The translations under genes were made by a program, and so were the position numbers. Source: Caloramator sp. E03 (GTDB taxonomy: Bacteria > Bacillota > Clostridia > Clostridiales > Caloramatoraceae). From it: a DNA stretch of 64,000 bases. Shown in pieces: positions 6,927 through 57,377 of the stretch. The stretch spans positions 2,273,501-2,337,500 of the forward strand of contig NZ_CP040093.1 of the NCBI RefSeq assembly GCF_006016075.1. Reading direction: 5' to 3'. Position 1 is the first letter of the stretch. Each line of letters starts with the position of its first letter. Below the pieces are notes generated by a model. It saw only the letters and a program-made list of their open reading frames with translations, was not told the DNA's origin and made no database searches.

Positions 6927-6944
6927 TAATATATATTAAATGAA

Positions 6945-7029
6945 TCTTATCACACGACTGGCGGAAGTGGAGTTTACCACAGGGAGTGTGATTTGTATAG
7001 TGCCGACCGCCTGGGCAAAACCAGGCGGT
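6945..7029 (+). promoter_or_regulatory. ZTP riboswitch (pfl motif)
   Basis: The leader matches the pfl/ZTP class, which senses the purine intermediates ZMP and ZTP as a sign of 10-formyl-tetrahydrofolate shortage. P1 pairs ATCACAC (6949-6955) with GTGTGAT (6986-6992). The conserved GACTGGCGGAAG and AGGGAG segments lie between them, and the signature CCGACCGCCTGGGCA (7003-7017) follows. The 3' part of the aptamer overlaps the 5' arm of a terminator, the known expression platform: ligand binding should stop termination. The class was first noticed upstream of pfl genes, and formate from PFL feeds one-carbon metabolism. Confidence 0.92.
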
Positions 7030-36279: not shown

Positions 36280-36375
36280 AAATAATGCTGTTAATAAATG
36301 GCTATTTTTTATTTTTATATAGTAGTTTCTTAAGCTATTATATAGCTTTTAGATTGTCCACAAAGCCTTTTAATG

Positions 36376-36559
36376 TTAGGAACTTTACAAGAGCCCCGTG
36401 AATGTATTTCAAAAAGGCATCTCTCATAAGTTTTAACAAATCTTGCTTTTTAAATTTTGAAAACAAAGAAAAGCTTAGAATTGCTCAGCAAAATGAGTAA
36501 GTGCCAGGGAAATCCTTCACAGGGCTTAACAAAAACAAACTTTTCAATAGCCTGAAAGC
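36376..36559 (+). repeat. structured interspersed repeat, copy 1
   Basis: The gap 36280-36628 has no gene but holds a copy of a repeat also found at 42389-42530. The ends of the core pair: AGCCC(C)GTGAA near 36392 with TTCAC(A)GGGCT near 36516-36526. Inside, GGCA..CTCA pairs with TGAG..TGCC. Compared with copy 2 it carries about 43 extra bases in the apical loop, which can themselves pair (GCTTTT/AAAAGC). A 13-bp direct repeat, AAGCTATTATATA, flanks it (36332-36344 and 36556-36568). Confidence 0.75.
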
Positions 36560-36628
36560 TATTATATATCTTTTTAATAAAATAGAGCCTGATTAGCTGT
36601 ATAGATTTATGATGGTTTTATTTTAATA

Positions 36629-42354: not shown

Positions 42355-42388
42355 TTCACTTATATACAAGTATGACAACCCATTTTGT

Positions 42389-42530
42389 TTTAGGAGCTTT
42401 GCATAGGCCCCGTGAATGGATTTCAAAAAGGCATCTCTCAAAAGTTTAGAATTGCTTAGCAAAATGAGTAAGTGCCAGGAAAATCCTTCACGGGGTTTAA
42501 TAAAAACAAACTTTTTCAATAGCCTCAAAG
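42389..42530 (+). repeat. structured interspersed repeat, copy 2
   Basis: The compact copy (about 142 bp), in the same orientation as copy 1. CCCCGTGAATGGATTT pairs with AAATCCTTCACGGGG (one bulged T), then GGCA/TGCC and CTCA/TGAG form an inner stem; the apical loop is short. The shared outer tracts TTAGGA(A/G)CTTT and CAATAGCCT are conserved too. It lies between murJ and a same-strand transporter gene. No frame is conserved between the copies, so it is not coding. Confidence 0.75.
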
Positions 42531-56524: not shown

Positions 56525-56548
56525 ATTTTTGTATTAAATAGGTTTCTA

Positions 56549-56642
56549 ATGTTAAGGGGGAGTAGCTGCCTTTTTAGGTGGTAAAGTCAACATGCTGGCA
56601 TTTTGCCTGGCTTTACCTGACTTTGTCAAGTGAGACCTTTAA
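56549..56642 (+). promoter_or_regulatory. yybP-ykoY manganese riboswitch
   Basis: The leader has the conserved segments of this class in order: GGGGGAGTAGC (56556-56566), GTCAACATGCTGGC, GCCTGGCTTTACC, and CTGACTTTGTCAAGTGAGACC ending near 56637. P1 pairs TTAAGG (56552-56557) with CCTTTAA (56636-56642). The 3' arm of P1 is shared with a terminator, so Mn2+ binding should allow read-through. The next gene encodes a UPF0016 protein, a known manganese exporter family, a natural member of this regulon. Confidence 0.92.
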
Positions 56643-56680
56643 CACAGTGGGTTCCCATTGTGTTAAGGTCTTTTATTTTT
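56634..56680 (+). terminator. riboswitch-controlled terminator
   Basis: GACCTTTAACACAGTGGG pairs with CCCATTGTGTTAAGGTC (one bulge, one wobble), followed by TTTTATTTTT. Its 5' arm overlaps aptamer P1. Confidence 0.88.
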
Positions 56681-56711: not shown

Positions 56712-57377
56712 ATGGCATTTTTGAAAACATTTCTACTTGTTTTAATTGCAGAAATTGGAGACAAAACTCAGCTTATGTGTATGGCCTTTGCAAGCAGATA
56801 TAAGGTTAGAGATGTTGCCCTTGGAGTTGGAGTTGCAATATTTCTTTTAAATGGTATTGCAGTAGCTGTTGGAAGTTTATTAGGTTCTATAATACCTTTT
56901 AACTATATAAAGATAGTGGCAGCAATTTGCTTTATAGCCTTTGGGCTTTGGACTATAAAAGGTGAAGATGAGGATGAAGAGGATGTTGAGAAAAAAACCA
57001 ATTTGGGTCCAGTTATAACAATAGCAGCTACTTTTTTTATTGCAGAACTTGGAGATAAAACTCAGCTTATGACATTAACCCTTGCTGCCAATTTTAAACA
57101 GCCTATTCTTGTACTATTAGGTTCAATCCTTGGAATGTTTGTAGCAGATAGCCTTGGAATTGTTGGAGCAGCATGGCTTAAAAAATATGTACCAGATGCG
57201 TTAATGAAATGGGCAACAGCAATAATATTTTTAGTATTTGGAATAATAACTTTGTATGAGGCAGTTCCTAAAAGCTATCAACGGATGCAGTATATATTAC
57301 CTTTTATATTAGTTCTTGGAATACTTATCTATATAATTGGTTTTAAATATAATAAAAATCAAGAAACTCTTAAATAA
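56712..57377 (+). CDS. UPF0016 (GDT1/MneA-type) manganese exporter
   Basis: A 221-residue membrane protein with two repeated halves, each with the signature E-x-G-D-K-T-Q: LIAEIGDKTQLMCMAF (E14) and IAELGDKTQLMTLTL (about E117). About six helices, with an acidic central loop (EDEDEEDVEKK). The family includes human TMEM165, yeast GDT1 and Vibrio MneA, cation transporters for Mn2+ (or Ca2+)/H+. The manganese riboswitch upstream makes Mn2+ export the likely role here. Confidence 0.92.
   Translation: MAFLKTFLLVLIAEIGDKTQLMCMAFASRYKVRDVALGVGVAIFLLNGIAVAVGSLLGSIIPFNYIKIVAAICFIAFGLWTIKGEDEDEEDVEKKTNLGPVITIAATFFIAELGDKTQLMTLTLAANFKQPILVLLGSILGMFVADSLGIVGAAWLKKYVPDALMKWATAIIFLVFGIITLYEAVPKSYQRMQYILPFILVLGILIYIIGFKYNKNQETLK

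Follow-up and report, generated by a model that had tools for sequence, protein, structure and literature searches.

Hairpin repeats of Caloramator sp. E03 as probable decayed MITEs of IS1182 type, some relatives of which match TwoAYGGAY RNA

The target duplications of MITEs are usually short. Hairpin targeting by relatives of the insertion sequence (IS) family IS1182 is already known from two reports: TnSha1/IS1272 inserts at terminator hairpins with a blunt cut and partial deletion (PMC4923244), and ISCbo5 was located, at every site except one, in a hairpin at a gene end (PMC3098183). TwoAYGGAY RNAs (RF01731) have been proposed to bind CsrA (PMC4333381). Our literature search, which covered main texts and few subscription papers, found no published tie of TwoAYGGAY to mobility. 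Both MITEs as a kind of element and the targeting of terminators by IS1182 elements are known already, and what is new in the present study is the TwoAYGGAY core and the finding that an element without a gene duplicates hairpins in their entirety.

We analyzed a 64,000-nt stretch of the Caloramator sp. E03 genome (the window), which contains two copies of a repeat that can be aligned in their outer tracts and core, in agreement with a first-pass annotation made from the letters alone. On comparison with related sequences, we estimate a probability of roughly 85% that this repeat is a decayed MITE of IS1182 type, descended from a ~285-bp parent that was moved in trans to terminator stem-loops and duplicated the hairpin on insertion. 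The borders of the copies were established by comparison with relatives, and differ from the limits first annotated. Copy 1 is 204 bp (36351..36554, + strand), its ends (left AGATTGTCCACAAAG, right AACTTTTCAATAGCCTG) having been placed by fuzzy match to the ends of relatives. It lies between a PsiE-family gene upstream (PF06146; 35848..36279, +) and a convergent polysaccharide deacetylase gene (PF01522; 36629..37540, −). Copy 2 is about 160 bp (about 42367..42526, +), with a decayed left end, and begins 12 bases after the stop codon of the upstream gene for the lipid II flippase MurJ (PF03023; 40780..42354, +).

Both copies have an outer stem, the arms of which are at 36391..36410 (GAGCCCCGTGAATGTATTTC) and 36509..36528 (GAAATCCTTCACAGGGCTTA) in copy 1 and at 42406..42424 and 42479..42499 in copy 2, all on the + strand. 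The paired ends and the GGCA/TGCC and CTCA/TGAG stem described in the first-pass annotation are present, and few shuffled sequences folded as well (z −2.70 for copy 1 and −3.11 for copy 2, with 2/200 dinucleotide shuffles equal to each copy). Copy 1 is also ~43 bases longer than copy 2, as had been noted, and these bases include a remnant of an apical stem, GCTTTT...AAAAGC (36445..36474, +). Comparison of cores revealed that the two AYGGAY hairpins are absent from copy 1, as they are from two loci among the named relatives (L100 and L110). In copy 2 the apical stem is lost too. Immediately to the left of copy 1 is a weak AT-rich hairpin, AAGCTATTATATAGCTTTT (36332..36350), which was repeated to the right of the element at 36556..36574 with 18/19 bases identical. 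The left duplication folds at −5.0 kcal/mol, a value equalled by 28/200 shuffles, and the single changed base in the right duplication breaks the hairpin and abolishes the fold.

The repeat is not confined to the window. We found 11 clear copies in the genome, a single 2.98-Mb contig, starting at positions 1187331, 1197191, 2309851 (copy 1), 2315883 (copy 2), 2543577, 1496868, 2367381, 2578003, 1935092, 918493 and 1657986; two further matches, both weak and 23 and 32 bases long, were left outside this count. The first-pass annotation had named as fatal to a structured family the finding of only two copies genome-wide and no covariation; the genome proved to hold 11, and the stems covary in relatives (see below). 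The repeat was also detected in 8/39 other genomes, all belonging to the same family as Caloramator sp. E03 (8/16 family members and 0/23 others). A search of named genomes with a 21-base pattern, which may have passed over entries for the Caloramator sp. E03 genome or one close to it, returned 51 loci, comprising 36 in Caloramator australicus RC3, 14 in C. proteoclasticus DSM 10124 and one in Fervidicella metallireducens.

Both ends of the element were recognisable in 45/51 of these loci and not in the remaining 6. The intact element is ~285 bp, with 41/45 measuring 279–290 bp, starts with CAGATTGTAGACAAAC and ends with AACTTTTTCAACAGTCTG. These ends are imperfect 16-bp terminal inverted repeats that differ from each other at 4/16 bases, and the interior folds end to end. 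Since intact relatives are longer, both copies in the window are shortened, and the description of copy 1 as enlarged has to be given up. In L100 and L110, which resemble copy 1, 79 bp are gone, apparently at a direct repeat (7 bp) that the intact form contains. The deletion class of copy 2, from which the apical stem is missing as well, is that of L034, L035, L056 and L062. Among the 11 copies in the Caloramator sp. E03 genome we observed, by inspection, two of full length (L006 and L008), two that had lost the hairpins (copy 1 and L009), four that had lost the apical stem (copy 2, L002, L003 and L005) and three remnants (L010, L012 and L264). The family and its deletion classes are established by these comparisons, and the repeat is multicopy, short and has no transposase gene, as expected of a MITE.

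Target duplications were most apparent in the named relatives. In 35/45 elements, a direct repeat of 14–35 bases with a score of at least 12 abutted both ends, and no pair of swapped flanks among 2000 reached that score, the highest being 8. Thirty of these 35 duplications had a stem score of at least 6 and were scored as hairpins. By a second method 37/45 elements outscored 99% of 800 swaps, and 40/45 left flanks scored as hairpins versus 17% of random 26-mers. These counts are based on one element per locus from 57 candidate pairs, with second candidates in L072 and L091 dropped, and on three species only, so that the 45 elements are not independent lineages. The 10/45 elements that scored below 12 include L084 and L095, which were scored with wrong borders and counted as misses, four (L070, L072, L099 and L110) with weak flank repeats, and four (L071, L073, L074 and L076) in which a matching flank repeat was sought and none was found; the hairpins on the two sides of L074 differ from each other. 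In the Caloramator sp. E03 genome a clear long duplication is kept at copy 1 only (18 of its 19 bases), so target duplication as expected of a MITE is seen in the relatives and in copy 1, and a clear one is absent from copy 2. A left-end-only fragment in L264 (~1500–1600; genome position 1935092) was also observed to abut a perfect hairpin, AGTTTTAGGGTAGATATCTACCCTAAAACT, another palindromic target.

The same Caloramator genome contains a candidate for the source of transposase. We found three identical 1,559-bp insertion sequences in it, the transposase of which scored 479.7 bits against the IS1182 family model NF033551 (cut-off 270) and has the domains PF05598 (DUF772), PF13751 and PF01609, making it a DDE enzyme. 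The first end of this IS is CAGACTGAAGACAAAG and its second end is CAGATTGTAGACAAAA. The left end of the intact MITE differs from the second IS end at 1/16 bases and its right end from the first IS end at 3/16, so the terminal inverted repeats are shared with an autonomous element; the ends of copy 1 have drifted from those of the IS. In 67,185 bases (some overlapping) from loci of the Caloramator sp. E03 genome, every 16-mer differed from the intact left end by more than one base. Each of the three IS copies is flanked on both sides by an exact duplication (24, 39 and 32 bp), which in every case is a complete hairpin. That the IS matches at its ends and leaves the same kind of duplication is established by these observations, and it is likely, judging from the sequences of the ends, that this IS1182-family element is the mover of the MITE. 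The first-pass annotation had considered a MITE moved by an absent transposase; the MITE part of that proposal stands, and the absence does not, as an IS with matching ends is resident in the same genome.

Ends of IS1182 type would also be expected if the repeat were the degenerate remains of an autonomous IS rather than a member of a MITE family. We regard this as extremely improbable, because no convincing similarity was found between the interior of the MITE and the resident IS, and the same ~285-bp form recurs in three species and in many copies. When the whole MITE was aligned with the whole IS, the best alignment was the terminal 15 bases, and identity as an IS fragment, which the first-pass annotation had named as a result that would count against a structured family, was rejected since the resident IS matches no further than those bases. 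No IS carrying the MITE interior beside a transposase gene was seen among 30 loci from 41 matches, in which the ends alone were compared.

We suggest that a DDE transposase of the IS1182 family moves the MITE, its most likely source being the resident IS with the same ends, acting in trans. Insertion would occur beside a palindrome, usually a terminator stem-loop, and the joining reaction would duplicate the whole stem-loop. Because the whole stem-loop is duplicated, each neighboring gene would keep its hairpin, and insertion is probably cheap for the host. Deletions would have followed, probably of the two AYGGAY hairpins first (copy 1) and of the apical stem afterwards (copy 2).

Copies adjoin gene ends and terminator-like hairpins, and the first-pass annotation had entertained an element of mRNA ends. 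A target preference is the most satisfactory explanation of this position. That selection has kept the repeat at these sites as a terminator or mRNA-end element is very improbable, as the flanking hairpins are the duplicated target and lie outside the element, and the insertions are lineage-specific on genome comparison. We looked for a copy in two genomes of the same genus (G001 and G002) and found none. In G001 a murJ homologue is followed by an eamA homologue and the element is absent from the gap, while the gene after murJ in G002 differs from that in G001. By eye, the psiE homologues of both genomes are followed by an ordinary terminator-like hairpin without the element, and gene order beyond it differs.

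Comparisons with Rfam gave a different result for the window copies and for some of their relatives. At the gathering score, no match was found at the repeat in the window, and copy 2 (in L033) had no RF01731 match at E up to 5; both window copies have lost the two diagnostic AYGGAY hairpins by deletion. A permissive scan of 12 loci revealed three full-length RF01731 matches (43.2, 39.5 and 39.4 bits; cut-off 43). All nine C. australicus loci tested matched RF01731, six at or above the gathering score of 43 (45.7, 45.6, 43.8, 43.5, 43.3 and 43.2) and three below it (42.7, 42.7 and 32.5); L064 of this later scan is apparently the same element as L043 of the 12-locus scan. One other relative, L041, also matched, and 0/7 C. 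proteoclasticus and Fervidicella loci did. Since 9/9 loci matched in the one case and 0/7 in the other, the C. australicus form is, on its scores, best viewed as a marginal but consistent member of TwoAYGGAY, the other forms having drifted. An RNA family, as the first-pass annotation had also proposed, is in this way supported by the C. australicus relatives and their covarying stems, but not by the window copies, which have no diagnostic hairpins and no Rfam match.

These relatives raise the question of whether the repeat is mainly a functional TwoAYGGAY RNA, for example a decoy for CsrA via its GGA loops, with transposition merely spreading the gene. When 24 full-length cores were aligned, pairing held in 96.5% of cells and covariation of the stems was established: 19/57 pairs changed on both sides versus a mean of 8.4 in shuffled alignments, with 0/500 reaching 19, and versus 1–7 in slid controls. 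The cores were hand-picked for diversity, and the structure was taken from the same alignment, which favours covariation. In the second GGA hairpin, which is outside the consensus, the arms change together by eye (CCGACA/TGTCGG and CCCTCA/TGAGGG). Strict AYGGAY was present in both loops of 6/24 cores, and A(Y)GGAY in both loops of 19/24. Such conservation would suit a functional RNA, but pairing and covariation are equally expected of a DNA hairpin; moreover, the window copies have no such loops, and the deletion form L100, also without GGA loops, still lies between clean duplications.

The printed proposal that TwoAYGGAY RNAs bind CsrA (PMC4333381) is in line with the distribution of CsrA at class level, where it was present in 25/29 TwoAYGGAY genomes versus 70/262 others (Fisher p 4.6e-10). 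This excess vanished within families: there was no difference within family f23 (10/15 versus 5/7, p = 1.0) or within the family of the window's genome (7/9 versus 5/8, p = 0.62, with a broken match among the seven). Because of this, we treated the link to CsrA as shared ancestry, which explains the co-occurrence as well as function does. Overall, a mainly functional RNA is unlikely, and the decayed IS1182-type MITE is the reading that we prefer.

To place this core in a wider setting, we scanned the class for TwoAYGGAY. At E up to 0.01 it was present in 29/291 genomes, 19 of them with matches over the cut-off and 10 with sub-cut-off matches only, often in several copies per genome. These copy numbers are lower bounds, as at most nine candidates per genome were taken and stricter filters lost weak matches; with those filters and E up to 0.01, the window's genome itself had no match. 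A scan for direct repeats around 30 TwoAYGGAY loci, with borders unset, revealed nothing general. In an unrelated clostridial genome (G076), duplications emerged once borders were set from several copies, and there TwoAYGGAY is the core of a MITE with other ends. The terminal repeat, CTGYRATTCGTAATATA (roughly 17 bp), was found at both ends of 8/9 fetched copies (L174–L182), and of these eight, six had exact duplications of 8–10 bp, one a duplication of 6 bp and one an imperfect duplication. With up to two mismatches the repeat occurs at 83 sites in that genome versus 14 for the reversed pattern, and it marks a separate MITE family (L174–L182, L251–L253), with or without the core. As some short pairs have no TwoAYGGAY core (L251 and L252), the core may be cargo. 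A partner IS was sought among the paired terminal repeats of G076 and none was found; the one ~1.5-kb pair that was inspected (2801554–2803073) had, by eye, no transposase-like ORF.

Other clostridial copies of TwoAYGGAY were found within palindromes. In G234 (L194–L201), G054 (L221–L227) and G064 (L189–L193) the core was observed inside long palindromes, the arms of which vary between copies and pair within a copy. The flanks of a copy were complementary beyond any swapped pair in 8/8, 6/7 and 4/5 cases, respectively, in these three genomes, and above the best swap in none of the copies of G149 (0/8), G119 (0/4), G059 (0/6), G211 (0/7), G251 (0/6) and G076 (0/9). Perhaps the palindromes of the first three genomes were formed by insertion into hairpin tips, or something re-makes them. 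Flanks in G149 (L202–L209) and L056 were also observed to include palindromes of the GGGGACGGTTCT type, which we take to resemble repeats linked to REP-type transposases.

Our data suggest that TwoAYGGAY RNA travels inside mobile elements. A broader idea, which we offer tentatively and at somewhat less than even odds, is that clostridial TwoAYGGAY is the recurring palindromic heart of mobile elements and not mainly a free-standing RNA gene, owes its movement to two or more transposition systems unrelated to each other, and has GGA-loop hairpins that are cargo or an aid to transposition. The two systems would be the IS1182 type that duplicates whole terminator hairpins in relatives of Caloramator, and the G076 type with its 8–10-bp duplications. 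In some hosts at least, the genomic occurrence of an RNA family of unknown function would in this way be explained in concrete terms, as that of a passenger of mobile elements, and its many scattered copies would need no regulatory role because they are carried inside such elements. In addition, a clean natural case in which an entire stem-loop is duplicated makes hairpin recognition by an IS1182-type transposase testable.

During our studies on the window, we noted two RNA elements elsewhere in it. A ZMP/ZTP riboswitch (RF01750) is at 6944–7023 (+; 64.8 bits, cut-off 39) and a manganese riboswitch, yybP-ykoY (RF00080), is at 56545–56671 (+; 47.7 bits, cut-off 45), the latter directly upstream of an internally repeated sequence (56740–56777 and 57034–57071).

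Comparison of the repeat with described systems revealed likenesses and differences in each case. Bacterial MITEs are similarly short, multicopy and gene-less, with terminal inverted repeats and target duplications, but the target that is duplicated here is a whole stem-loop of about 20–30 bases. TwoAYGGAY RNA (RF01731) shares the outer stem, junction and two GGA-loop hairpins, and copies from C. australicus match it over its full length; matches were confined to the intact form of that species and L041, with none in the window copies or in the forms tested from C. proteoclasticus and Fervidicella. The IS1182 family, including IS1272/TnSha1 and ISCbo5, is represented in the same genome by an IS with a transposase of that family, and insertion at hairpins is common to these elements and ours, whereas the MITE has no gene. 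TnSha1 was reported to insert with a blunt cut that deletes part of the hairpin (PMC4923244), whereas the elements described here duplicate the whole of it.
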